A stretch of DNA of 64,000 nt, from assembly GCA_021399435.1 (NCBI GenBank), contig JAJTUP010000068.1:62001-126000 (forward strand), read 5' to 3'. Origin of the DNA: Diaporthe sp. PMI_573 (Eukaryota; Ascomycota; Sordariomycetes; Diaporthales; Diaporthaceae). The number at the start of each line of letters is the position of its first letter. The first letter of the stretch is position 1. The notes under the pieces were generated by a model that was not told where the DNA came from, made no database searches, and saw nothing but the letters and a program-made list of their open reading frames with translations. Below are positions 3,935 through 64,000 of this stretch, in pieces. The translations under genes and the position numbers were made by a program.

Positions 3935-6900
3935 ATGGGCCAGCCGTCCTCCTCGCACCAGTATCACATCCCCCCTTCGCAACAGTCCGCCAGCTTCCCC
4001 ATCAGCGAGCCTTCCTCCCAGCCTGTTCGCCCCGCCAGCGCCGCCTACTACCAGCCTACAAACCCCTTGTCATCCACCATGGACGACGATCATTTCCCCC
4101 AGATCTATTCTGTCCGTGAAACTCCTCCCCCAACAACCCCACAGCTCACCGCACACTGCGCGGCCGGTGCCACTGACCCTACTTCCGCAGTCCGTCTACT
4201 CCGGCGTCGAAGTCTACGAGATGGAGGTCAATGCCGTCGCCGTCATGCGCCGCCGTCACGATAGCTGCCTCAATGCCACTCAGATTCTCAAAGTTGCCGG
4301 CTTGGACAAGGGGAAACGAACCAAGATCCTCGAGAAGGAGATCCAGACCGGCGAACACGAGAAGGTCCAGGGCGGCTACGGGAAATACCAGGGCACCTGG
4401 ATATCTTATGACCGAGGCGTCCAGGTCTGCCGCCAGTACGGTGTAGAGGACCTCCTCCGGCCACTGCTCACCTACGACATGGGCCAGGATGGCACTGCTG
4501 CGGGCCGTGGCGACCTCAACACCCCGACCAAGGAGCAGGCCATGGCTGCCCAGAGGAAAAGGCTCTACAGCCAGCCTATCAACAACAGGTCCAACAGCAT
4601 GTCTGGCACATTCTTCAAGAACTCCACCGCCTCCAATGCCGTTGCCGCCATCAGCAAAGCCAGACTGGACTCACCGGGGCCCAGGAGCCGCGGTGGCCTC
4701 TCGAGGGCCCCCAGCTTCAATCGCCAGCCCTCGGTCTCGATGCAGAGCTTGGACGACTTCCCCGGCAACTCGCAGCAGAGCTTCACCTCTGATCACGCCC
4801 GCAACGGCGACTCCGCATACTCTGCACAGCGTAACAATGCGCAGCCAATGAGCATCGACGGGGCTGAGCCTCCTAGGAAGAGACCGAGGGTCGCGGTGAC
4901 GCCGGCAGATAGCTTCGGGCAGTCGCAATCCCAGTCGCAATCCCAGTCCCAGTCACAGAGCATGTATACAAGCTTTCTATCACTGGTACATCCATGTTCC
5001 GCTTTAATGGATCGCAATTTGGAATCTCCGCCAGCCAGGCCATCTGCCGCGGACCCAACGAATGACGTACTAGACCCGCAGAAGTCGCAGTTCGAGCAGT
5101 TGAAGGAACAGCACACAGCGGATCGCATGCGCCTGGACAACGAGTACGAAGCTAGGAAGGCGGAACTCGATGCACAACTGTGCCACGTGGAGGACCAATT
5201 TGGTTCGGACTTGGATCAGACCGCCCGAATGGTGCGCGAGGCTTTTGTGACGGTCCAACAGTCCTTCAGTTTAGCAGTCGCGAAACAAGTAGACCTTCAC
5301 CTGAAAAAGAACGAACTACATCGCGAATATGAAGGGACGAAAACAAAGGCCGAAGCGAATCTGCTTAACAAGGTCCGAGAATTGATTACCGGTTCGGCCG
5401 CCGAGCAAAATACAACCCTTGGCTCCGTGCTTGAGGAGACGGCATCGACCTCTTCTACCATCGCGGTAAGCTTACGAGTGGATAGTTCATACCATCAATG
5501 CTGACCAACGACAATAAACAGGTCACCACTATGGACCAATCCGTGTTGCCAGCCAGATTGCATCGGACGCCTCGACCACACTACTTCAATGCGACCCGGT
5601 CTATCGAGGCCAGACCTCCCGGCGCAGACGTTCATGCGCCCACGCCTCAAACACTTCTGCTTACACCTTCCCGGCCAGCATCGACGCCACAAGCTTCCCC
5701 TCTCCAAACGTCAATGTCCGGAGAACTCCCGCCCCAGGATCCGACCCCCTTAGCAGACATGCATAAGAAGGATTATATCACGTCAGCGCCGTCCAAACCT
5801 GCGTTGCAAGGAAAGCCGTCAAACCCAAATCCTGAACCATCATGCTCTGCTCGACCTCCGCGTCCACCGTCGATACCTGATGAACCCATGGGCAATGCAC
5901 GACAACGAACGCCTGCTTCGGCAACTCAATCCCGCCAGAACGTAAAAAGGAGGGCTGTTGAGTTACCAGCTGAAAGCACCATGGTTGTGCCGAAACGCCG
6001 ACGCATGGAAGGATCAGCTGCAGTAGCACAGCAGACCTCGGCGGCGGAAAGTTCAGCGGAACAGCAACATAGCACATCTTCACGACCAGATCTAGCCCAG
6101 GAAAAAGCAACACATCGCGTCGTGACCTTCGAAGAGGTTTATCAACAAGGAGAGGCCAAATTCAAGCACAAGATCTTCGAGTATAAGGAAGGTTCCGGTA
6201 ATTGGTACATCGTCAAGTGTGATAAGCATAAAATGCATTTTGGGCTTGGGAATCCCTTGCATGGCGCTGCCAAACACTTGCACAGCCCTCAGCACGGTAG
6301 ATTGGAGAAGACGCATCATCTTGCCATTCAGAATTGTGGCTTTCTCGTGAAGGATTGTACGGCGGAACTTGCAAACCTGAACAACACTGTGTTCGAGGAA
6401 GCGTTGAAAAATGGGTACAAGATCTTGAAGCCAACAAATAAGACAAGCAATCAATCAGTCGCGGCAGAGCTGTCCAATTTGTCGAATGATGGAAACAGTC
6501 AACAGCAAAACTTCAGGAAAGCACAAGCGAAGCCCCGCGACATGGAGCGTCAAGTTGCTGCCGCTCAGCCCGAGCCGCACAGCGACCTTAGCGACAAGAG
6601 AGGCCACTATCTCATCGCTAATCTTGGCTCTAACCAGGATGAACCCGACTGCATCGTCATTCCTTCAGGATCAGCATCACATTCGAATAAAGAGGATACT
6701 TCCGGAAACGAAAGTGAGGATCAGGAGCTACGCGCTACCGGTAGACCCTCTGCTCATGATCACGACTCATCGGCATCGAGCACTGGGCAGAGTAGTACCA
6801 GAAAGCAAGATGCAAACCCCGTGGTCAGCGCTGCTGCGTTTGATCAACAGCTCTTACGGAGTGAAAATGCTCTCCGAGCAGTTGAGAGAGCAACATCTGG

Positions 6901-22930: not shown

Positions 22931-22995
22931 TAGCATTTAGGCAGCAATGAGCGGGAAATAGGCTCAACTTATCTTGGTCTACGATCATCGATGCC

Positions 22996-23802
22996 TTGCG
23001 GGATGTATTCGCGGCTAGAGGTGAGCCACATCACCTCCAGATTACCGGCACATCAGGCAGTGCGGCTGCTCAGATCGGCGGGACGACACTCCACTCAGCC
23101 TGCGGACTGGATATCCGTCGTTCTAACAACAAGCAGCAGCCTCCAATATTCTCAGAAGCGAAAAAATGGATGTGGAAGCAGAAGTTGGCTCTCGTGATCG
23201 ACGAAGTGAGCATGCTCGGGGGAACCACTCTATTCGATGCCAACTGCCGCCTCCAGGCCCTCCGTGACTGTCCTGATAAACCATTTGGAGGTATTCCCGT
23301 TGCCGAGGCCGAGGCAATGTACGGGCGGGTGCTGGATGGCTACGAGAAGGCGTTAGGACCGGGTCACACGTCGACGCTCAGCACGGTCAACAATCTCGGC
23401 AACCTCTACAAAAACCAAGGGCGACTTGACGAGGCCGAGGCGATGTACGGGCGGGCGCTCGATGGCTACGAGAAGGCATTGGGACCGGGTCACACGTCGA
23501 CGCTCGACACGGTCAACAATCTCGGCCTGCTCTACGCAGATCAAGGGCGACTTGACGAGGCCGAGGCGATGTACGGGCGGGCGCTCGATGGCTACGAGAA
23601 GGCATTGGGTTTGACCCAAGCTAACCGATATCTCCCTGCCCTAAATACGCTTCAGAGCCTCGCTGATCTCTATATTGAACTCAACAGGGCACATATTGCT
23701 CGGCCCCTATATACTCGTTGCCAAGCAGGGCTCGCAGTAGTCTTCAGCCCACAGCATAGTAGGTATCAAGAGATATCTCAGAAGTTAGCTACATTAGATT
23801 GA
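22996..23802 (+). CDS. Helitron Pif1-helicase piece fused to TPR repeats
   Basis: The first ~95 residues are a Pif1/Helitron helicase segment: LQITGTSGSAAAQIGGTTLH, then the Walker B-like LALVIDEVSMLGG, then CPDKPFGGIPV. At that point, in frame, the protein becomes kinesin-light-chain-type TPR units (AEAMYGRALDGYEKALGPGH, TVNNLGLLYADQGRLDEAEA) and ends in a typical NLR TPR cap (LPALNTLQSLADLYIELNRA). The Walker A loop and helicase motifs III-VI are missing, so helicase activity is excluded. No ATG begins the frame; upstream IIDALRDVFA still matches helicase, so the 5' side is also cut. Most likely a Helitron captured or landed next to the end of an NLR gene. Whether it is expressed is unknown. 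Confidence 0.7.
   Translation: MRDVFAARGEPHHLQITGTSGSAAAQIGGTTLHSACGLDIRRSNNKQQPPIFSEAKKWMWKQKLALVIDEVSMLGGTTLFDANCRLQALRDCPDKPFGGIPVAEAEAMYGRVLDGYEKALGPGHTSTLSTVNNLGNLYKNQGRLDEAEAMYGRALDGYEKALGPGHTSTLDTVNNLGLLYADQGRLDEAEAMYGRALDGYEKALGLTQANRYLPALNTLQSLADLYIELNRAHIARPLYTRCQAGLAVVFSPQHSRYQEISQKLATLD
23311..23620 (+). repeat. 126-bp TPR-coding tandem repeats
   Basis: Two and a half units of 126 bp (42 residues each) are nearly identical in DNA, not only in protein. Such homogenised repeats are typical of fungal NLR recognition domains that change copy number by recombination. Confidence 0.8.
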
Positions 23803-33562: not shown

Positions 33563-33722
33563 TTTCGTGGCTTTACGTTTCGTGGCTGTATATTCCGTGA
33601 AGGTACGCTTCGTGGCTGTATGTTTCGTAGCCGTAGATTGCGTGGCTGTATATTTCGTGGCCGTAGATTGCGTGGCTGCATGTTCCGTGGCTGTATGTTT
33701 CATGGCCGTATATTCCGTTTCC
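33563..33722. repeat. 15-bp minisatellite (left arm)
   Basis: About ten imperfect 15-bp units of the form TTCCGTGGCTGTATA cover this stretch. On the minus strand they read as a Thr-Ala-Thr-Lys-type pentapeptide repeat. The mirror lies at 36517-36676. Confidence 0.8.
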
Positions 33723-35473: not shown

Positions 35474-36924
35474 AAAATAAATAATATGATGCCACAGTAA
35501 ATTACCTCTAAAAATGAACATTTACATGCAACAAAGTTTCCTGCGTGCCACAAGTCCCTGTACTCAATCCAACAGCCATGATGTAACCTTTCAAAAAACA
35601 GGACTTCTGTCGAGTATTTGAATATACAGTACCGAAGCCTCAAATTCCACTGCTTTGGCATTCAAATTATTCGAGCAAGCAGCTCTCCTACCTCATGTGA
35701 GCCCTTTGCAATGCCCAAGGAGGACTTTCATTTGTTGGCTTCTCAGAACTGTCCATCAAGGTAAGTGAGCATCAAAACCCACGCCACGAATAGCATACCC
35801 TCGCAATATTTACTAATATTTTCTATGGCTTGAATGCACGGAGACTTTCCTTCAGGCATAATCAACGAATTTTATGAACCAGTTTGGGGATCGGAGTGTA
35901 TCAGAAAGATGGTTAAGCGACATGAGGACTAGCATTTTTCTCAGTGTTCGTGCTGAGCACGGCGAAGCATCCGAAAACGACTCTATGTTGCTTAACCGGC
36001 ATGGGAGCCAGGCACCTTCGTCTTCCTCAACTGACCAGGCGCAATCAACTTTCAAAACCCTAGATCAGGATCCCCTACGGTCTAAGACTAGTGAGGTGCT
36101 GTGGGCATCGGAGCCGACGGTGACAATACAAATTATCAACGTTCTGTGGGCCCCTTGACGCCTGTACCGGAAGATGGGGATTTAGATGCCTTTGAGAGTT
36201 ATAGAAATAGTTTTTATTATCTAATACCGAGCCAGCTACTCCTGGCTCATTATTAGTGGCATTTTGATCAATTATGAATAGCCTGGGGTCTAGGTCGCCG
36301 CTATTTAAATGATACACTTTCAAAGAATGTTCTGTCCTGTCTCTGGAGACAGGCTATGGATTTATCCTCGCATGATGCTCTGGAGACTGAGGTCTGGTTC
36401 GCGGCGACCCTGCACTACTGATCGTACGTACTTCTGTTGCAATTCTGAAACTGGAACTGCATTTTTTGAAAATCTCTCTGATTTTATGTGACTTCATTCC
36501 AGCCCGAGAGAGCTATGGAAACGGAATATACGGCCATGAAACATACAGCCACGGAACATGCAGCCACGCAATCTACGGCCACGAAATATACAGCCACGCA
36601 ATCTACGGCTACGAAACATACAGCCACGAAGCGTACCTTCACGGAATATACAGCCACGAAACGTAAAGCCACGAAAGTGACTGGATTAGATTGCTCGTTC
36701 AATTCTATAACTATCCACAGTATCACTCAAGATTGTCAACTAGCGGGGTGATCAGCCCGGCCTTTCTAACCAGGGTGATCAGCCCGGCGAGAAAGCATGC
36801 AATGCATATAGAGGACGAGAGGCCGATACGGTGCCAAAACCGTGACATCTACCACCAACGCCACCAGATGCTCTAACCAAAATCGCAGCCCCCAACCATC
36901 CACCACCAACCAACCCCAGCTCTC

Positions 36925-46506: not shown

Positions 46507-47919
46507 CTATTGACAAGGGAACGTGGGATGCTTGCCATAGGCTGTGGCCGTAGCGGCCGTTTCCAGATAACTCTCGATCTCCAGGTATCCGCGAACGTGG
46601 ACTGTGCGCACCTTGCCTCGGGTGTGGAGGCAGGCGAACATGTTGGTCGGATCGAACCGAGCTCTTTCGCCTATCCCGCCGTTTGTACTCTCTAGTCGGC
46701 GAGCCATCCAGCCCTTTTCAATAACGTAGTCTGGTGGGTGGTCGTGGCTATCTCGGCGTCTTAGACATAGCCCCGTCACCTTGAGCTCCTTCTTTGTTCC
46801 CTCATCCCTCTCTGCACATTTAACCGGCGTCACGAGCGATGCCCAAGACCACGATGGGGCCTGGTCGACTTTGGTCGTACACGGCGGCGCTGAGTGGTCT
46901 TCCTCCCAGATAAGCCCGTGGTGGAGATCCCGGAGCCACAGGCCAGCCACGTACACTTCGTACACCTCGTGATGCACACCGTCCACCACGGCTTCCCGCC
47001 GCACCTTGTTCGCGAGTATCAGTCCCGTTTCCTTAGCTATGCCAGCGACGGCTAGGATACGGTCCTGGCCCGGCTTGGTGAGGTGGCAGGACGAGTACAG
47101 CTCCAGAGCGCGGTACCAGAAGTCCAGGATAGAGGGGCTGCCGAAGTGGAAGGACCCCTTGAGGCGCAGCTGGGACTGGAGGTCGGGCTTCGCGTTCTCG
47201 ACCCAGATCGTCTCTCTGTATTCGGTCCGCATGACGCCCGTGTGGCACTCGAAGAACAAGCCCTTGGAAGTGTACCACAGGAGCCGCTTGGTCAGCAGCC
47301 ACTCTTGCAGGACCCAACCGCGGCGGAGGAGGATGCTCTCGCGGACAGTCGTCCAGTAGTCCTCTGCAGCGGGCACTCGGCGTTTGTACACGAAGAAATG
47401 GCCGGTCTGCACGCATGTCTTGTTCCGGTATGGCATCCGGACGAGCTGAGACCCCCAGGGCGCGTATTCGTCAGGATAAGCGCAGAGCAGGCCATTGGTC
47501 GTATCGGACATGGTCCCAGCAATAGTGAGGTATGAGAACTGGTAGTACTGTGCCATCTTGGGCGCCTCTCTCCGCCAATCCGCCCCGTCGTCACCTGATT
47601 GGATGATGCAGATAGAGTCGATCCAAACATATTGGACTCCCAGCTCCGCCGCGATAGTGAGGGCATCCTGGAAGAGTCGCGGGAGCGTTTCCCAGTCGAC
47701 CTCTTCCTGCCTCTCACTGTAGTTCGCCACGGTTGTCTTACATCGCTCTGTTCCGACATTCCAGCGGTGCGTCAGCGTGATGTAAGTGCCGTCCTGGCCC
47801 TCGGTAGAGACAAGACGGGTGCGCAGGCTTGGATCGCCGCCGGTGGGGATGATTTCGATGCACCTCGCCGGCAGCGGCGAGTCCAGAGTTCTCAGCCAAT
47901 TATGACTACGCCGCCCTTC
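46507..47919 (-). CDS. HET-domain (heterokaryon incompatibility) protein
   Basis: The open frame runs from 47919; the HET domain begins near LPARCIEIIPTGGD with YITLTHRWN, then WETLPRLFQDALTIAAELG, YVWIDSICIIQSGDDGADW, REAPKMAQYYQFSYLTIAG and RRGWVLQEWLLTKRLLWYT with FECHTG. All three conserved HET blocks are present. A 200-residue C-terminal part follows, ending KHPTFPCQ. HET proteins trigger programmed cell death on non-self recognition. No ATG lies at the 5' end: only about 15 codons precede the domain before a stop at 47920, and retroelement sequence starts about 100 bp further on. The N-terminus is therefore probably cut or in a lost exon, while the domain is intact. Confidence 0.8.
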   Translation of the reverse strand, partial: EGRRSHNWLRTLDSPLPARCIEIIPTGGDPSLRTRLVSTEGQDGTYITLTHRWNVGTERCKTTVANYSERQEEVDWETLPRLFQDALTIAAELGVQYVWIDSICIIQSGDDGADWRREAPKMAQYYQFSYLTIAGTMSDTTNGLLCAYPDEYAPWGSQLVRMPYRNKTCVQTGHFFVYKRRVPAAEDYWTTVRESILLRRGWVLQEWLLTKRLLWYTSKGLFFECHTGVMRTEYRETIWVENAKPDLQSQLRLKGSFHFGSPSILDFWYRALELYSSCHLTKPGQDRILAVAGIAKETGLILANKVRREAVVDGVHHEVYEVYVAGLWLRDLHHGLIWEEDHSAPPCTTKVDQAPSWSWASLVTPVKCAERDEGTKKELKVTGLCLRRRDSHDHPPDYVIEKGWMARRLESTNGGIGERARFDPTNMFACLHTRGKVRTVHVRGYLEIESYLETAATATAYGKHPTFPCQ

Positions 47920-48024: not shown

Positions 48025-49215
48025 TCAGGATTTACCGCCAGGATGCTGCAGATGTGGCCACCGACGCCGCAGGAGGAAGACCTTGTCGTGAACCTTAAAG
48101 TTCACCGAGCGACGCTTCTTGTTTGCCTGGGCCTTCTGTTTCTCCTGCGTGCTGGCGGCGGCACGGCGGGCGAGTTCCTGCACCTCCTTGGTCTGTCTGA
48201 CCAGCTTAAGGGCCGTCTCGGCTGGTCCTGCTGTTGCCTCTGCTGTGCTTGGGTCTAAAGACAACGGGTTCCGTATGTCCTTGCCTAGCATGACCTTTAG
48301 TGGTGACATATCGATTGCGGAGTGCCACGACGAGTTGTGCGCGAAATCAAGGGCTGGCAGGTGTACACTCCAATCGTCTTGGTACTTGTCGATGTAAAAC
48401 CGTAGCCGCTGGTCCAGCTCCTGGTTCGTGAACTCGATCGCACCTTGAGTCTGGGGGTGGTAGGTGCTCCCGTGCCGATGCTTTGTTCCCGTTAGCTCGT
48501 TCAGCTTTGCGAGAAAGGCTGAGACAAAAGGTCCGGCATTATCACTGATCCAGGTCGTCGGCAACCCTAGGAAACGGTACAGATAGCGATAGTATCTCGT
48601 GGCCAGTGTCTCCGCTGTATCGGCCTTCTTCCCCGGAAGTGTGGCCAGGAGTCTGCTTAGCTTGCACACAAAACCCCATACGTAGTCGTACCCAAATCGG
48701 TCCTTGGGCATTGTCTTGCCGTCAACGACAACATATTCCCAGACTTCTCCCGGTACTGGCAGCGGGTGAAGTAGCCCTGGTGTCTTGTCTCGAGGGATCT
48801 TGTTCCGCCGGCACTCGTGGCAGTTGCGGATATACTTGCGTACCGATTGCTTTAGCTGTGGCCAGTAGTATTCTCGCTCCAGCATCTTAATAACCTTGTT
48901 CTGGCCTGGGTGCGCGAAGATCTTCGGGACATGTGCTTCTCGGATCAGGGCTGTCTGCAGATAGATGCCGCTATCTGTTGTCTTCTCTGGCACCCAAAGA
49001 CGTCCGTCCCTCGAACCAAGTCCTTGGACTTGGTTTTCCCGCTTGATAAGGTCGACTAGGTCTGCGCCCTGAGGGATATCGGCGTGGTCGGCAAGGTCAG
49101 CCGCGGCAATCACTTCGCGGTCCGGAACTGTTTCCACTTGCTCGGCAGGCTGGGCTGTAGGCGATAGTCTTGCCTTAGGGATCAGAGCCATGGTCCTCTC
49201 TTCTCGTTCACGAAT
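48025..49215 (-). pseudogene. Diverged Ty3 integrase, truncated at both ends
   Basis: It is a relative of the integrase at 8605, with zinc finger (HPGQNKVIKMLEREYYWP, CHECRRNK) and DDE core (VVDGKTMP, WISDNAGPF, TNQELDQRL). It stops in frame after VHDKVFLLRRR near 48025, before the GPF/Y and chromodomain parts. The first Met of its own frame is at 49191; upstream, the frame belongs to the membrane-protein pseudogene. WGFVCKLSR replaces the expected VFIDKFSR in the core, removing an Asp that the other copy has near the active site. It is inactive as it stands. Confidence 0.85.
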
Positions 49216-49223
49216 GACAGCCA

Positions 49224-50157
49224 CGATAGCCAGCGAGAGTTCGGCGAAAGTCCCAAACACTGCCCGGAAAATCCCAATGAAGATTTCTCGGCGCAACTTT
49301 TGTATTCACAAGACTAGATCCTCTGAACACATGCGAGTCACCATGGAGATGGGAAGGAGCGAAAGAATTGCTGTCCAGAACTCCACCATACTTCCGGGTA
49401 GCTTCAGGTGAACAACTAAAGTAGTGATCCCCAACGCGACTGCGAGCGCGAGGGAGACGTAAAGTCTTAGCTGCCAGTAGTCTAGTTCTGGCGATACCTT
49501 GATGGACCCCATAGGGCTGATAGAAGTAATGGAACTGATGGGCGACATTCTTGGAAGTGCGTGAACTGTATGCCTGAGCATCTCGCGAAGCTTGAAGTCA
49601 GCGTTCTCCTTAAACTCTCCGGCGTCGACGAAATCAGTCAGGCCGTAGGATGTCAAGGCAATGGCCGGTAATGACGCCCGCTCAAAAGTGACAGGGCTCC
49701 AATTTGTATTGTGCTGCTAGACCGGTGTCGAGTTATCGCTAGAAAATGCAGGCGTGTTCGGCATCGTTGAAGAACTGTGCATGTCCCTGCACTGCATTAG
49801 GCTTTGATCAACGTTGTCCTGAAGTGCCGCGACCGCGCTACCACTATCGATTCGAGACGCTGTCATCGGCATGGCGTGATACCACATGTCCGAGGTCTTT
49901 TGCATGGCTGAACCAATACAGACAGGTGTCAGTGATGTTGAGGGGTTATAGTTGTTTATCACCGTGGTGTCACTACCAATGGAAATATCTCCGCCTTGGA
50001 AAGGAGTCGAGTCCCTCAGTAGTGCTGTCTGAGCATTGTAGAAAATAAAGGCTAACGGGTATATATCAAACCAAGACGTCCCTGATGGCGTGTGTAGTAG
50101 AGATTGGCTATTGGTGTACAAGACCTCAAAATATGAAAGACTATAATAAAGGCCCCG
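49224..50157 (-). pseudogene. Membrane-protein gene with two nonsense codons, interrupted by integrase
   Basis: One frame can be followed from YYSLSYFEVLYTNSQSLLHT through NAQTALLRDSTPFQGGDISI, a TAG near 49719, PVTFERASLPAIALTSYGLT, a membrane helix (LYVSLALAVALGITTLVVHL), a second (FWTAILSLLPIS), a TGA at 49306 and REIFIGIFRAVFGTFAELSL. At about 49215 it passes in frame into integrase sequence. Apart from the two stops there is no frameshift. TAG fits CAG with C to T; TGA fits CGA with C to T. The parent family is not recognised. Confidence 0.6.
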
Positions 50158-57478: not shown

Positions 57479-60400
57479 TCACTCTGTCGACAAGGAACAG
57501 TCCTCGTGAATCTGATGGTCTCTGAGATATTGCTGTATCAGGACCTCAATGTGTTGTCCAGCCGCGGCCATGTCAACTTCCTCCACAGCCCTTCGTAGGC
57601 ACACGAGACGCTCACGCCTCTTTATTTCTTCACCCCTTTGGCAAGCGATATTTTTCGTGACGTGCTTGATCTTGCTTTCAAGTTCGCTCCTCAAGACGAC
57701 ATTGCTCTTTAAACCCTTGGCAGATTTAATCATATCTCTGAGGAGAGTCTCGTCATGTTGCAGTTCGTGCAGGGGATCTTGCAATTGATCGGTCAGAGAG
57801 GATCGTGCATTTTCAATGGCCGACATCAGGGTTGTCAGTTGTTGAAGAGCTGCCTGAAACGATCGGAGCTTGGAGACGCAGGCATCAATGTGGTAATTTG
57901 CGGCCTCTTGCTGTCGTTGTAAAAGTTTTCTCATGGTGCTCTGCAACTCTCTGTTACCCTGAAGCGTATTCGCAGAGGCTAAAGTCGCACTAGCCGCATC
58001 CATATCGTCTGGGGATAAACCGAGGAATTCATGTTCATATGCGACTTTGTCAGAAAGCATATCCCAGAGCCGTAAAGGGCCTGCGACCGGAACGTCGCTA
58101 TATTGGCCGCCACGGCTAGCCACGTGCACAAAATTGACGTTTGTACCTAGAGCGAGCAGAAACAGTCGATAAAGCTTGCTGTCGATCGAGGATGGCGCGT
58201 CTATACCAGCAGCATCGTAGGCAGTCATAATGATACAACAGAGGCCGCAGTCGTAAGAATTGCTCTGCTGCAGGATTTTGGTCGGATGTGCAATATGCCA
58301 GCCTTTGTCCCAGTCATTGTACGGGTCTGGGAGCCGATTGGTGACAAAACGGCGAGCTAATTGCAAGCACTGGTCATTATTGTCCTCAGTTGGCCCGTTT
58401 GGATCAAACAGCACAGCCTCACGTGGACCCACGTAAATTCTGAGCAACACCCAGTGCTTGTTGTTGACGTTGATTTGGAGGGCAAAAGTACTAGACTCGT
58501 GGCACGGGAGTGTCCATTCAGTTGAGTCCTGACAGTCCCACGCGCCGCTGGACATAGTACTGATTTGAGAGGCAACGGAGGTAAAATACTCCGCAAAAGT
58601 GTTCATAAGGCAATCATTGAGCCATCCACTCTGATCATTGTTGCATTTAAGCCTCTCGAGATCCTGTGGAAGGAATGGCAGCAGCGGTGCGAAAAGATAC
58701 GGCTGCGCTGGGCCTGCAGTATCTTGAGTTAAGTCGATCGGATCCTGCTGACTGGTAATGTGGGAATGTCTCGTAATTCCAACCTTAGTAGGGCCCAGGC
58801 ACTGTGTGTGTTGTGGTGATAGTTGTGCTGGTGTGGATGGTGTGGATCGGTGGGCGAGCGATTCAGGCAATATTTTGCAAGAAGATGGCGTGTCACTAGC
58901 CTTTTTCTCCAAGTCCCTCACGCCCCAATTTTGGCTTGGACTGCTACCTGTGGCTAGCTCTGACGTATTGCCATTGGGTCCTTCGGAGTAGCTGTGACCG
59001 CCTCTTTCAGAGGCGGGATTAGGTAAGCCGTCAAGGATGTCCATCATCTCCAACGCCTGCCAAAGAGCGCCGTAGTTGCCGTGTATAGCATGGCCTTCCA
59101 GCTCGAGGGTAGCGTCTTTAAAGGGCTTTAGCAGAGCGACAAATCTCTGGATTTCCTCCCAATCGCTTCTCTTGAGGAAGTCCTGGCTCAAATCATAATC
59201 TGCGTCCCTCTCCCACTGTGCACAAAACACCTCAATTGCATTCCTAAGCTTAAGCGCGCGCTCAAGCATAGAGAAAGTTGAATTCCACCGGATCCCGCCG
59301 TCCTTGATAAGCTGTAGGCTGAAAAGCTCATCATCTTGCAGGGCCTCGGCTTGTAGAGTCTCGAAATGCTGTCGGCGCTGATCTGAGCGTGTAATGTAGC
59401 GAACAATATTATGAACTTTGCCGATAACGCCTCGTTGCCGCCAGATCGAGAAGGATTCTTGGTCGTTACAACACTGGAGCTGTCGTTCGGCCTTACTCAC
59501 ACCTTTGCCATAGAGAATTGCCTTGACAACGAGGTTGATAACGTGGCCAGAACAGCGGAGTCGTCTCCAGTCCGGATCGAAACCAAATCGCGTAGCTAGT
59601 TGTAACACGGCGCGATCGTTATCCTTGGCGTTATCCATCATGAGACAACCAAACTTCGGCTCGAGATCGTACTGCGTAACTACGCTAATAAGGCAATTTG
59701 CTATATTTTCGCCTGAGTGAGAACCATATAGCCGCGGGAGGCCGAGAAGAGCTTGATGATTGGTGTAGTCCACGCCTAGTAAGCGGAGGTTAAAAGTTGG
59801 ATTAAGCCTTATATAATAAAACGTCTGAATAGTAAAGGGCATCATATATATATACGTACCTACAAAGTGCGCAACTACGCCGCAGAGGCTCATCCCACTA
59901 GTTGACGTCCATAAGTCGCAGCTTAGGTGGACCGCACTCCTACATTCCTTCAACTCAACCTTCAAACTCTCCCTGCGTGTTTCAAATGCAGCCATTATCC
60001 AACTGCTCAGCGTCGTCGCGGACGTAGGGAGAAGCCGCTCTAACTCAGGCCTCCCATACGAGAGTAAGTCACACGTATCTCCGGCAGTTGCGCTTCGAAA
60101 GCTCACGTCGTGAGCAACAACCCAGTCCAGATACTGCTGCCTGTAGCCTTCCCCAGTAATAGGAGTCCGTAGTGGACCAAAGCTATTAGCCTTCTTACTT
60201 CGATCCCATGGGTTGGAAACCCGGATATGCTGAGGAACTTCGCCGTCCTCAGAAATGCCGTGTTTGTGCTTTAAATGGTAGGCGATCGCACTATTTCCGT
60301 TGTATTTAAATATTGTAGAACAGTCGCTGCCAGTCTCATGGCATCTCCGACAAAGCCAGTACTGCTCATTTTCTGACTCGATATTGGCACCGTGGTCCCA

Positions 60401-60685
60401 AATCCAGGACTTCTTTGTCTTGCCGGTTGTACGCTTGTGCTTCATATAGTAGTGCGCATCGCTTAGACGTTTGTTGTTGTACTGGAGAGCACCCCAGCGA
60501 ATTGGGAAGGCACCATCGGCAAGAGGTCTCGGAGCTCGGACAGATGAAGGAGATGACAAGGGCCCAGTTGAAGGCGTGGTCGATTTCTTGGCAGAGGACT
60601 CGATTGATGGTTGGATTGAGAGCTCCGTAAATTGGTCTGCTGAACGCGACGATGACGGCGTGGAGGAGAAGGACGGGGCCGACAT
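57479..60685 (-). CDS. hAT transposase N-terminus fused to Ulp1/C48 SUMO protease
   Basis: The frame is open for 1068 codons. An in-frame 84-bp intron (59776-59859; GTACGT to CTAG) splits AHFV from GVDYTNHQALLG. Numbering unspliced, residues 93-143 form a BED finger (WIWDHG, CRRCHETG, H-x-x-x-x-H). The hAT core has Asp257 (HLSCDLWTS), Asp351 (LMMDNAKDND) and CSGHVINLV at 378-386, then ends after WNSTFSMLERAL and a LEGHAIHGNYGALWQALEMM segment. The third catalytic Glu and the dimerisation domain are missing. After a Ser/Pro linker comes a SUMO-interacting-like DPIDLTQD (648-655) and a C48 protease: WLNDCLMNTF, His744 (NNKHWVLL), Asp761 (LFDPNGP), Gln806 and Cys813 (SYDCGLCC). A long coiled coil ends the protein. 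The protease triad is complete, so DNA-targeted deSUMOylation is plausible. Undamaged length suggests selection. Confidence 0.85.
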   Translation of the reverse strand: MSAPSFSSTPSSSRSADQFTELSIQPSIESSAKKSTTPSTGPLSSPSSVRAPRPLADGAFPIRWGALQYNNKRLSDAHYYMKHKRTTGKTKKSWIWDHGANIESENEQYWLCRRCHETGSDCSTIFKYNGNSAIAYHLKHKHGISEDGEVPQHIRVSNPWDRSKKANSFGPLRTPITGEGYRQQYLDWVVAHDVSFRSATAGDTCDLLSYGRPELERLLPTSATTLSSWIMAAFETRRESLKVELKECRSAVHLSCDLWTSTSGMSLCGVVAHFVGTYIYMMPFTIQTFYYIRLNPTFNLRLLGVDYTNHQALLGLPRLYGSHSGENIANCLISVVTQYDLEPKFGCLMMDNAKDNDRAVLQLATRFGFDPDWRRLRCSGHVINLVVKAILYGKGVSKAERQLQCCNDQESFSIWRQRGVIGKVHNIVRYITRSDQRRQHFETLQAEALQDDELFSLQLIKDGGIRWNSTFSMLERALKLRNAIEVFCAQWERDADYDLSQDFLKRSDWEEIQRFVALLKPFKDATLELEGHAIHGNYGALWQALEMMDILDGLPNPASERGGHSYSEGPNGNTSELATGSSPSQNWGVRDLEKKASDTPSSCKILPESLAHRSTPSTPAQLSPQHTQCLGPTKVGITRHSHITSQQDPIDLTQDTAGPAQPYLFAPLLPFLPQDLERLKCNNDQSGWLNDCLMNTFAEYFTSVASQISTMSSGAWDCQDSTEWTLPCHESSTFALQINVNNKHWVLLRIYVGPREAVLFDPNGPTEDNNDQCLQLARRFVTNRLPDPYNDWDKGWHIAHPTKILQQSNSYDCGLCCIIMTAYDAAGIDAPSSIDSKLYRLFLLALGTNVNFVHVASRGGQYSDVPVAGPLRLWDMLSDKVAYEHEFLGLSPDDMDAASATLASANTLQGNRELQSTMRKLLQRQQEAANYHIDACVSKLRSFQAALQQLTTLMSAIENARSSLTDQLQDPLHELQHDETLLRDMIKSAKGLKSNVVLRSELESKIKHVTKNIACQRGEEIKRRERLVCLRRAVEEVDMAAAGQHIEVLIQQYLRDHQIHEDCSLSTE

Positions 60686-60699
60686 GGTGGTGTGTACTG

Positions 60700-61150
60700 C
60701 CGGAAATTTTCCGTTGTGCGTACGTGTAGGGAGCGTTGCTATATGTAAAAAGAGATGCTGAGTCTAGACGGGAGGGCAAGTTGAAGTTCGAACGGAGGCC
60801 GCCAAAACTCTCGCTAAGACGCGTTACGCGTCGCGCATCTGGCACGTCGAACGGAATGGCTCGGGACGGTCAGGTCGGGACAATCAAATGACAGGGATTA
60901 ATGCGCTAAGCAAGGGGTTGAGAGACGCCGTCTCTGGGCTAGGATCTGAATAGGAAAAACTCGGTCTTTACATCGAGTTGAGATCCACTAATAGGTATCT
61001 GGGAGGGTTTTAGAAAACCCCCCTCTAAATCCAACCGTTAACTAGTTAACTGACAAGCTTATAACGTCCCTAACGGTTGAAATGAGGAACTTATAACGTC
61101 CCTAACGGTTGGTATTACGTAAGCCGTTAACTGGTCCGTTATCCAAATGG
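60700..61150. other. Upstream flank of the hAT-Ulp1 gene
   Basis: It holds direct repeats and GTTAAC palindromes (see next feature). No gene was found. Confidence 0.4.
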
Positions 61151-61165
61151 TTAACTGACTATTGG
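61033..61165. repeat. Subterminal-type repeats (AACGGTTAGGGACGTTATAA)
   Basis: CTTATAACGTCCCTAACGGTTG occurs at 61058 and 61090, and GTTAACT/AACCGTTAAC motifs flank them on both sides. Such clusters are typical of hAT subterminal regions. The cluster ends where the DUF3723-like gene has lost its 3' part. Confidence 0.5.
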
Positions 61166-62158
61166 ACACACTGCCACAGGATGTCCTGTATTTATATCCT
61201 CTTTGCACCATGTATATTCGATGGGTTGATTAGAAACTTGGACATAACTTGCGCAGTCTTCTTCAGCTGGATCTGATTCCGACATTTTCAAAAAGTGCCC
61301 GATAATATTAGCCATCACCAAAATGTGCGACAAAGTATCTGCTGGGACAGAAGGGTGTTCAATCTGGGTCTGCACCTCTTCAGACTGCAAAGCCATGTAT
61401 GCGCTCAAATAAGGCTTACCTTCCCTCCATACTGGGCAGTTTACATCATGCTGAGTATTGTCGTTCGTGGCGGCTTGATCTGGATCTGCCTGAACTCTTT
61501 CTCGTCCCTCTAGCTTGAGGGTCCGGAATCCGAGATCATATGCTCTTTGTTGAAATCGCTGTACAGCGCTGCGTTGAACTTGTCCCACTAATCGATGGCC
61601 ATCCTTGCCACAGAGCGGGGATTCGTAGCTAAGTTCCGCGAAGTTTTGCAGCGCGAATACGAGGAGTCTTGTGTACGCCCTGTAAAACGCGTCTTTGCCT
61701 AAATGATCGTGTGCATAGTGACACTCATCTCCACTCTCGCAACCGTGTCCCTCGCTTGGCTGGAACCGCCTTTTGAGCACATTCCTCAATGTCGGCTGGT
61801 CTCTGCGTCGGGATCGATCTGGCGCGACAAATTTCCAGATGGCCCTAACTGCGGGTGAAAAATACAGCATATCCTTGTGAAGTGTCTCGATGCTTGAAAT
61901 ACGCCGCTTTACTGTGCACACGCTTTGCTCTAGACTTAGGCGTTCTCCCTTGTCAGTAATATCTGTGAAAACTTCGTTTGAGCGAAACAAGTCCCGGATC
62001 ACGGCAAGGTCCTCGTGATGATTTGGAAAGAGTTTTTCCAGTCTACGAACAGTATCCACATCGACAGCATTAGCAAAAGCATCAACACCTAAGGTGATGA
62101 GATCCCACGTTTCATAAACACATCCGAGATAATAGATGATCTCTTCATCGCAATGCAA
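61151..62158 (-). CDS. DUF3723-like protein, 3'-truncated
   Basis: The frame reads IIYYLGCVYETWDLITLGVD, AVDVDTVRRLEKLFPNHHED, RRISSIETLHKDMLYFSPAV, RDQPTLRNVLKRRFQPSEG, a Cys/His pair (GCESGDECHYAHDH), then LLVFALQNFAELSYESPLC and the block shared with 15784-16422. The TW-x-L-I-T-L-G to VDVDTVRRLE order is what I associate with DUF3723, a fungal family of unknown role. The start is a TTG in the present frame, so an upstream exon is likely. After TGHPVA near 61181 the sequence leaves the paralogue and stops within 6 codons. The body is undamaged. Confidence 0.5.
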   Translation of the reverse strand: MHCDEEIIYYLGCVYETWDLITLGVDAFANAVDVDTVRRLEKLFPNHHEDLAVIRDLFRSNEVFTDITDKGERLSLEQSVCTVKRRISSIETLHKDMLYFSPAVRAIWKFVAPDRSRRRDQPTLRNVLKRRFQPSEGHGCESGDECHYAHDHLGKDAFYRAYTRLLVFALQNFAELSYESPLCGKDGHRLVGQVQRSAVQRFQQRAYDLGFRTLKLEGRERVQADPDQAATNDNTQHDVNCPVWREGKPYLSAYMALQSEEVQTQIEHPSVPADTLSHILVMANIIGHFLKMSESDPAEEDCASYVQVSNQPIEYTWCKEDINTGHPVAVCPIVS

Positions 62159-62169
62159 TTTAGAGTGTG

Positions 62170-62960
62170 ATAGTACTAGAAGATCCCCCTGTCCGATATG
62201 CTATTGGGGGTAATAGACTATATTGAGGAATGGAGGGCAGAAGCGAAAGAAGTGAGAGGTTTTGAAGGCGTACAGTGCCCACTAGCCTGCTGCGCACCCA
62301 TCAGAAGAGTCTAAAGTACAGTAAAAGGCGAAATGGGCTTCACCAAAATCTTTAGTTAACATTTTTAGTAGTGGTGGTGTGGGTCCGTGGCTTAGAGGGC
62401 TTGGCAGACAATGCTTGTAGTGTCGAAGTACTCAGGGAGAAATCGCTAACAGAGCCAGAACTGGCTTACAGATAATCCGTCAGGGACACAACTTCTCCAA
62501 AAGCTGCTTCATCTCCCTCCTTATCTCTCTCCGCCACAGCTACCGTACTGTATCAACCATCCAGTGTCAGAGCAATACAAACTGACAGAGGGACTAGTAT
62601 ATCTGTATTTAAGCAAGAGTCTCTAAGCATCCAGTATCTTTTGCAGAGCATCAGATTGTTAAAGTGTAATAGATAACCCCGCTCTGTTTTCCTGACTCCT
62701 CATGGCCTAATCCGTCAAAGGAGCAATCAGTCCAATGATGCACTGCTATTGCCTGCTGTGTTACCTTACGTCAGCCGCCATGATTTCATAAGGCATCCAG
62801 CTGCCTAGAGGATATCAGTCTACCCCTCTCATGTGCGGAGGCGACTGAAACTCACATCTGTCACGTCATCGTTGAGCAGCTGGCGCGCATCCCCATATCG
62901 CCAGTGAACGTTCAACCCGCTGGATAGCTTTGCCTTCGTCTGCCTATAAGCAAGAGCTTG
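62170..62960. other. Stretch without recognisable gene
   Basis: No supported feature was found. Confidence 0.35.
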
Positions 62961-62966
62961 GCATCT

Positions 62967-64000
62967 ATGGACCTCACTCACGTGGGCTACTTACTTGCGA
63001 TTCTGAGCCTTGTCATTTATCGCCGAATTCTAATTGCGTCGCAGCAAGCAGGAACCAGTATGCCACAGTGAGATACCGAAGTGAGCTAGGCCAATACTAG
63101 ACACATAAGCCAGGAGATAATAGACAGGATGGGGCATAATGGGACAGATAACGGAAAGTACGAAGCGGTAGGTTGATCCACACAGAAGATAGGCTGGAGA
63201 TTCTTATAAACAAGTCATGATCTCTAACCTAGGTGTTTTTGGTGATGATATAGGATGTAAGTATTACTGCCTGCCTCCCCTGCCTCTTAAGGCTTGTTTC
63301 TAACCTGGGTGTTTTTGGTCGTGATATAGCATGTAAGTATTACTGCCTGCCTCCCCTGCCTCTTAAGGCTTATTTCTAACCTGGGTGTTTTTGGTCGTGA
63401 TATAGTATGTAAGTATTACTGCCTGCCTCCCCTACCTCTTAAGGCTTATTTCTAACCTGGGTGTTTTTGGTCGTGATATAGGATGTAAGTATTACTGCCT
63501 GCCTCCCCTGCCTCTTAAGGCTTATTTCTAACCTGGGTGTTTTTGGTCGTGATATAGCGGGTAAGTATTACTGCCTGCCTCCCCTGCCTCTTAAGGCTTA
63601 TTTCTAACCTGGGTGTTTTTAATCGTGATATAGCGGGTAAGTATTACTGCCTGCCTCCCCTGCCTCTTAAGGCTTATTTCTAACCTGGGTGTTTTTGGTC
63701 GTGATATAGCATGTAAGTATTACTGCCTGCCTCCCCTGCCTTTTAAGGCTTGTTTCTAACCTGGGTGTTTTTGGTCGTGATATAGTATGTAAGTATTACT
63801 GCCTGCCTCCCCTGCCTCTAAAGGCTTGTTTCTAACCTGGGTGTTTTTGGTGGTAATATAGGTTGTAAGTATTACTGCCTGCCTCCCCTACCTCTTAAGG
63901 CTTGTTTCTAACCTGGGTATTTTTGGTGATGATATAGGCTGTAAGTATTACTGCCCGCCTCCCCTACCTCTTAAGGCTTGTTTCTAACCTGGGTGTTTTT
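62967..64000 (+). CDS. Candidate split gene with codon-sized exons (runs off the window)
   Basis: Proposed exon 1 is 62967-63057, starting MDLTHVGYLLAILSLVIYRR, a signal-anchor-like helix. A donor GTATGC at 63058 pairs with AATAG at 63123; exon 2 (63124-63167) reads RMGHNGTDNGKYEA and ends in phase 0 at donor GTAGGT. Its intron (63168-63253) has CTAAC and ends GATATAG. From there ten 3-nt units (63254-56, then every 76 bp: GAT CAT TAT GAT CGG CGG CAT TAT GTT GCT) are each flanked by TATAG and GTAAGT. All ten are sense codons in this phase. The array continues beyond 64000, so the last exon and stop are unseen. The model is an inference from splice motifs only; an untranscribed satellite is the alternative. 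Confidence 0.3.
63225..64000 (+). repeat. 76-bp tandem array, at least 10 units
   Basis: Units begin at 63225 and recur every 76 bp without length change. Each contains, in order, CTAACCTGGGTGTTTTTGG, GATATAG, a variable triplet, GTAAGTATTACTGCCTGCCT and CTTAAGGCTTRTTT. Outside the triplet only a few positions vary. Confidence 0.97.

Follow-up and report, generated by a model that had tools for sequence, protein, structure and literature searches.

How is a tandem repeat to be read when each of its units looks like a complete intron followed by a single codon? Such a repeat runs off the end of the window, i.e., the 64,000-nucleotide stretch of Diaporthe sp. PMI_573 DNA analysed here, and belongs to a locus that we term C183. 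Our analysis makes it very probable that the triplets are real one-codon micro-exons, which would build a variable N-terminal peptide of HET (heterokaryon incompatibility) proteins. The evidence for this reading, along with that for the alternatives, is presented below.

Results

Anatomy of the array

A first-pass annotation had described ten consecutive 76-bp units, each carrying GTAAGT, CTAAC, TATAG, and a single triplet. This description was confirmed by TRF, which returned a 76-bp tandem repeat (10.2 copies, 95% matches), and by direct reading, according to which each unit consists of a 73-nt intron plus one codon, with the triplet flanked directly by TATAG and GTAAGT and with CTAAC present within every array intron. 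The first ten triplets (GAT CAT TAT GAT CGG CGG CAT TAT GTT GCT, in order) are spaced at 76 bp. The array extends past the window by six further units (TAT TAT CAT TAT CGG TGG) for a total of 16, with the terminal TGG codon at C183:126391-126393 (L009 2392-2394). The features are as follows, with the supporting evidence in parentheses.

63129..63167, + strand: first exon (39 nt, phase 0) predicted for the HET gene, MGHNGTDNGKYEA (spliced frame, homology)
63168..63253, + strand: predicted intron 1, GTAGGT...CTAAC...TATAG, 86 nt (sequence, spliced frame)
63223..64000, + strand: tandem array of 76-bp units, running on beyond the window (TRF, direct reading)
63254..63256, + strand: micro-exon 1, GAT (Asp) (direct reading, site-chain search)
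63330..63332, + strand: micro-exon 2, CAT (His) (direct reading, site-chain search)
63406..63408, + strand: micro-exon 3, TAT (Tyr) (direct reading, site-chain search)
63482..63484, + strand: micro-exon 4, GAT (Asp) (direct reading, site-chain search)
63558..63560, + strand: micro-exon 5, CGG (Arg) (direct reading, site-chain search)
63634..63636, + strand: micro-exon 6, CGG (Arg) (direct reading, site-chain search)
63710..63712, + strand: micro-exon 7, CAT (His) (direct reading, site-chain search)
63786..63788, + strand: micro-exon 8, TAT (Tyr) (direct reading, site-chain search)
63862..63864, + strand: micro-exon 9, GTT (Val) (direct reading, site-chain search)
63938..63940, + strand: micro-exon 10, GCT (Ala) (direct reading)
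L009 2010-4605, past the window: micro-exons 11-16 (Y Y H Y R W) and HET exons (sequence, spliced model)

The site-chain search looked for [CT]AG-NNN-GT[AG][AC]G sites 50–110 nt apart; chains of at least three such sites were absent from 40 simulated 62-kb sequences (first-order Markov, both strands), and the array is the sole chain of two or more within the real window. Units of non-standard length were excluded from all counts of entropy, diversity, and consensus. Across the 14 standard-length units of the locus, no variation is seen in GTAAGT or in the final six columns of the intron, in line with the invariance of splice motifs noted at first pass. The accompanying claim that the triplet is the most variable site holds for the three-column block in all four arrays so compared (C183, C163, C28, and C34), but not column by column: the C183 triplet columns rank 1, 2, and 5 of 76 by entropy, with two intron columns varying more than the third triplet position.

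The array leads in frame into a HET-domain gene

Beyond the window, the last unit leads into an exon of a HET-domain gene. A spliced model comprising the 39-nt exon 1, all 16 one-codon exons, and the exons further downstream encodes 703 aa in frame with no stops. When a 576-aa part of this protein was compared with Pfam, residues 188-343 of that part matched HET (PF06985; E 7e-28, 98.2 bits, cut-off 22.5). No other Pfam domain was found in this protein at E up to 1, NACHT-ANK (NLR) architecture included. An in-frame EKR-repeat minisatellite lies near the C-terminal part of the gene (L009 about 4222-4385) and is shorter in the paralogue C8.

Arrays with 7 to 52 units also lie 5′ of other HET genes (C8, 11; C136, 10; C153, 8; C163, 16; C28, 23, from two overlapping loci joined by coordinates; C161, 7; C34, 52), and first exons of 39 nt homologous to that of C183 were found in C8, C163, and C153. 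Spliced models were built for six of the eight HET-linked arrays with a unit count (C161 and C136 being left out), and all six are stop-free, either through the HET exon (C183, C163, C8, and C153) or through the exon after the array (C28 and C34); for C34, CAAG had to be taken as the acceptor that follows the final micro-exon, as a nearby TAG breaks the frame. The predicted open-frame chains contain 8, 11, 16, 16, 23, and 52 one-codon exons. The micro-exon junctions are in phase 0 in the models built, such that the frame would be kept by any number or subset of units.

None of the six NCBI models examined for these genes (P0001-P0004, P0045, and P0046) contains the micro-exon strings: five start downstream of the micro-exons, and one (P0045) translates introns as protein. 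By eye, the Dactylonectria protein P0006 also appears to include translated intron sequence. A search for spliced relatives among metagenome- and transcript-source proteins returned none that settles the splicing question.

Stop codons are avoided in the triplets

An open frame would also result if the whole array were spliced out from first donor to last acceptor, as the flanking exons join in phase 0. The triplets would then never reach the protein, as would also be the case if the inner introns were merely a splicing or expression device. The spliceosome, moreover, has difficulty in defining exons of 3 nt. Skipping of this kind does not predict the observed absence of stops from all 143 tandem codons of eight arrays and all 37 non-tandem codons (see below; five of the 37, with a donor outside the regex, were read by eye). 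Column-shuffling of triplets within arrays gave a mean of 8.2 stops in the tandem set and never zero in 20000 runs. Array units are related by duplication, and in the conservative test, in which a triplet recurring within an array is counted a single time, 2.9 stops were expected (P 0.029). These counts suggest that the triplets are coding. Four array peptides were also tested for an amphipathic helix, with no significant result (C34, P 0.21).

Arrays and predicted one-codon exons recur at HET loci

Protein searching led to 30 fetched HET loci, of which five were duplicates, leaving 25 distinct loci. Tandem arrays are present at nine of these (one, C206, being decayed and interrupted), short arrays at two (C79 and C193), and one-codon exons between non-repetitive introns at eight, i.e., 19 of 25 loci have either arrays or one-codon exons. 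In C136 the gene is decayed and one of the ten codons is preceded by a broken acceptor. The HET paralogues C136 (L011) and C206 (L029) both contain stops and look rich in A/T, as might be expected after RIP, and C206 has an insertion within its array. At C172 (L023), C12 (L034), and C123 (L044), C183-type HET exons are, as judged by eye, joined to other upstream sequence; there, the array region seems to have been lost through rearrangement. At C135, two scattered sites are present without forming a chain of three, and no sites were found within the 1.5 kb fetched for C196 and C27. Array-like places with no HET gene in the stretch read number four: C20, C139, C143 (non-tandem), and C153:521158. 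The array count for the genome is a lower bound, being drawn from the first 100 of 144 sites.

In all eight non-tandem paralogues, the regex places a Tyr codon alone between splice sites, a pattern noticed after the sites had been listed and resting in L043 on the single site there. The introns flanking this Tyr exon are no more alike among the eight paralogues than shuffled sequence (similarity 0.569 vs 0.556 and 0.556 vs 0.549), and the exon that follows appears by eye to be homologous across subfamilies (LxxxW...DN). Persistence of one Tyr micro-exon between unalignable introns is a further point against skipping of the triplets, which on the combined evidence we regard as unlikely.

In searches of the protein database, the C34 N-terminus matched solely itself among 73 candidates, and the misread N-terminus of the C161 protein matched itself and, at E 8e-8, one protein of Fusarium solani, which suggests that F. 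solani may hold similar arrays.

Intron families probably share an old origin

Intron bodies are 45–70% identical between C183, C161, and C34, yet the TAG-codon-GTAAG design persists. The introns of C183 and C34 (45% identity) are not above shuffling; those of C161, however, resemble both C183 (0.625) and C34 (0.695), with neither value reached by any of 300 shuffles. The families are thus distantly related, and their recurrence counts as one origin, not three; a single old array unit probably underlies them all. By intron consensus, C34 introns also resemble those of the HET-less C139 array.

Such relatedness bears on whether the arrays might be neutral minisatellites, with chance intron-like motifs, spread by segment duplication. 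One old repeat could indeed underlie all of these distantly related families, array relics without a HET gene do exist, and segments around C183-type genes have been duplicated, with flanks 81–98% identical. A neutral repeat would not be expected to keep TAG-codon-GTAAG while its introns diverged so far, nor to show an open frame and stop avoidance, nor does it account for the eight paralogues in which one-codon exons sit between non-repetitive introns. We thus consider the minisatellite explanation highly improbable.

Many near-identical introns within one gene would also be produced by introner-type mobile introns inserted repeatedly at one place. BLAST of four intron types against the 83.7-Mb genome found close copies confined to their own lineages, the counts being lower bounds: C34-type introns on at least one contig, C161-type in at least three HET genes, C139-type at one place at least, and C183-type at seven or more HET loci plus C20, C153:521158, and a fragment on C164. 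Among the copies found, near-identical introns are therefore not dispersed over unrelated genes, for which reason introner elements were rejected; we give this account next to no credence. Stwintrons were likewise rejected on reading, as the array introns are separate and non-nested, and a donor, a branch-like motif, and an acceptor can be read in every one of them.

Triplets vary far more than the introns around them

When units are aligned, with each codon paired with the intron after it, triplet diversity exceeds that of intron bodies in six of six arrays (ratios of 11.0 in C183, 11.9 in C163, 8.7 in C28, 5.5 in C34, 11.8 in C153, and 6.7 in C136), bearing out at 5.5–12× the earlier claim of excess triplet variation. 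Such an excess is unexpected if the triplets are never translated. Between C183 and C163, the flanks are 95.3% and 98.0% identical, and the two arrays share none of 15 codons (terminal TGG excluded).

Closest unit pairs were compared using both flanking introns. In C28, units 7-8 and 11-12 form an exactly duplicated block, with zero differences in both flanking introns. Of seven such pairs in C34 (at most 4 differences over both introns), three differ at all three triplet positions and three at none, and both C163 pairs differ at all three. Concerted evolution would homogenise triplet and intron alike and is thus insufficient on its own to explain the triplet excess; recombination inside introns, combined with diversifying selection, would account for it. 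Given whole 3-nt differences between some units with near-identical introns on both sides, a mutation process directed at the triplet is also thinkable.

The HET exons have dN/dS values of 0.22–0.32 between diverged copies (9 pairs); judged by these ratios, they are under purifying selection at that distance. Values for the youngest copies are 0.58–1.29 (6 pairs), where purifying selection is not measurable.

Discussion

We propose that the array constitutes the 5′ part of a HET-domain gene in which each unit would be a spliceosomal intron followed by a one-codon micro-exon. Splicing would join exon 1, the string of one-codon exons (16 in C183), and the long downstream exons, yielding a HET protein whose N-terminal peptide would be hypervariable. 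The earlier proposal of units made up of a full intron and a single codon, whose turnover would alter a peptide residue by residue, fits the tests run (frame, stops, motifs, HET recurrence, Tyr exon, and paralogue codon turnover), with splicing itself predicted. We infer that the introns would be spliced in the cell, that the N-terminal peptide would help to set recognition specificity, and that units would be gained and lost by unequal exchange, with selection maintaining their diversity; some units may also be skipped by alternative splicing. More tentatively, and with rather less than even confidence, we suggest that HET recognition tags may be composed of exchangeable one-codon cassettes, in which units are gained, lost, and exchanged under very strong diversifying selection or triplet-directed mutation, and from which alternative splicing may draw many tags per array.

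The first-pass annotation knew of no described fungal system of this form, a statement that must be withdrawn in light of the nank (NACHT-ANK) genes of Tuber melanosporum, for which codon-sized, alternatively spliced micro-exons are reported (Iotti et al. 2012, as cited in portions of PMC3689799, PMC4986451, and PMC10197012). As described in those portions, both systems involve non-self-recognition-type fungal genes, tens of 3-bp exons (predicted ones in Diaporthe), and proposed protein diversification. The nank genes, however, are truffle NLR genes with variation in sensor domains (PMC10197012) and reported alternative splicing, whereas the Diaporthe genes are HET-domain genes in which the predicted exons are N-terminal and the intron-plus-codon unit is repeated in tandem up to 52 times. 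The consulted parts of the PMC literature, outside of which most subscription papers fall, contain no report of tandem intron-plus-codon arrays, of one-codon exons in HET genes, or of N-terminal placement. PMC11121469, in the available part, describes a fungal micro-exon of another kind, in Xlr2, and states that functional micro-exons were previously undescribed in filamentous fungi.

Repeat-based diversification is a feature that the Diaporthe arrays share with incompatibility genes of Podospora anserina, which contain hypervariable protein repeats (PMC1805685, in part); in Podospora, each repeat of the DNA specifies a complete protein repeat, while in Diaporthe it would encode one residue. 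In ascomycetes, multiplied sequence-similar introns are also found in Hypoxylaceae, as stwintrons and repeated introns (portions of PMC8469720 and PMC9024468), with the difference that those introns are nested while the Diaporthe introns are separate, in one array, with a codon between.

Two further comparisons come from general background. The hypervariable repeats of P. anserina het-d and het-e are WD repeats. In Schistosoma, micro-exon genes contain chains of short symmetric exons that give rise to variable proteins, as proposed for Diaporthe; the Schistosoma exons are usually longer than one codon and are not known to be head-to-tail copies of a unit.

Were the arrays to function as proposed, addition, loss, or swapping of a unit would rewrite a HET protein residue by residue, with the introns around each codon providing an internal standard against which selection on individual residues could be gauged. 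If spliced as predicted, (i) runs of 16 to 52 successive 3-nt exons would probe how far exon definition can reach, (ii) the range of codon-sized micro-exons would widen beyond truffle NLRs to include HET genes, a landmark fungal incompatibility family, and (iii) the missing N-terminus in the automatic models of these HET genes would be explained.

Other features of the window

Upstream of the array lie an ORF with a DUF3723 match (61154-62200, − strand) and a 1094-aa ORF with an Ulp1-type protease match (57482-60763, − strand). A second HET-domain ORF (46510-47919, − strand, E 2e-20) adjoins an ORF with retroelement integrase domains (48028-49305). Two arrays of a 15-bp repeat (33563-33711 and 36528-36676) are mutual reverse complements about 2.8 kb apart, and are perhaps the ends of a transposable element. 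The ORF at 22951-23799 (+ strand) contains 2.5 copies of a 126-bp TPR repeat (91% matches; Pfam TPR_10 and TPR_12) and a PIF1-like helicase match just above the cut-off; near-identical repeats occur in fungal NLRs, of which this ORF is reminiscent.
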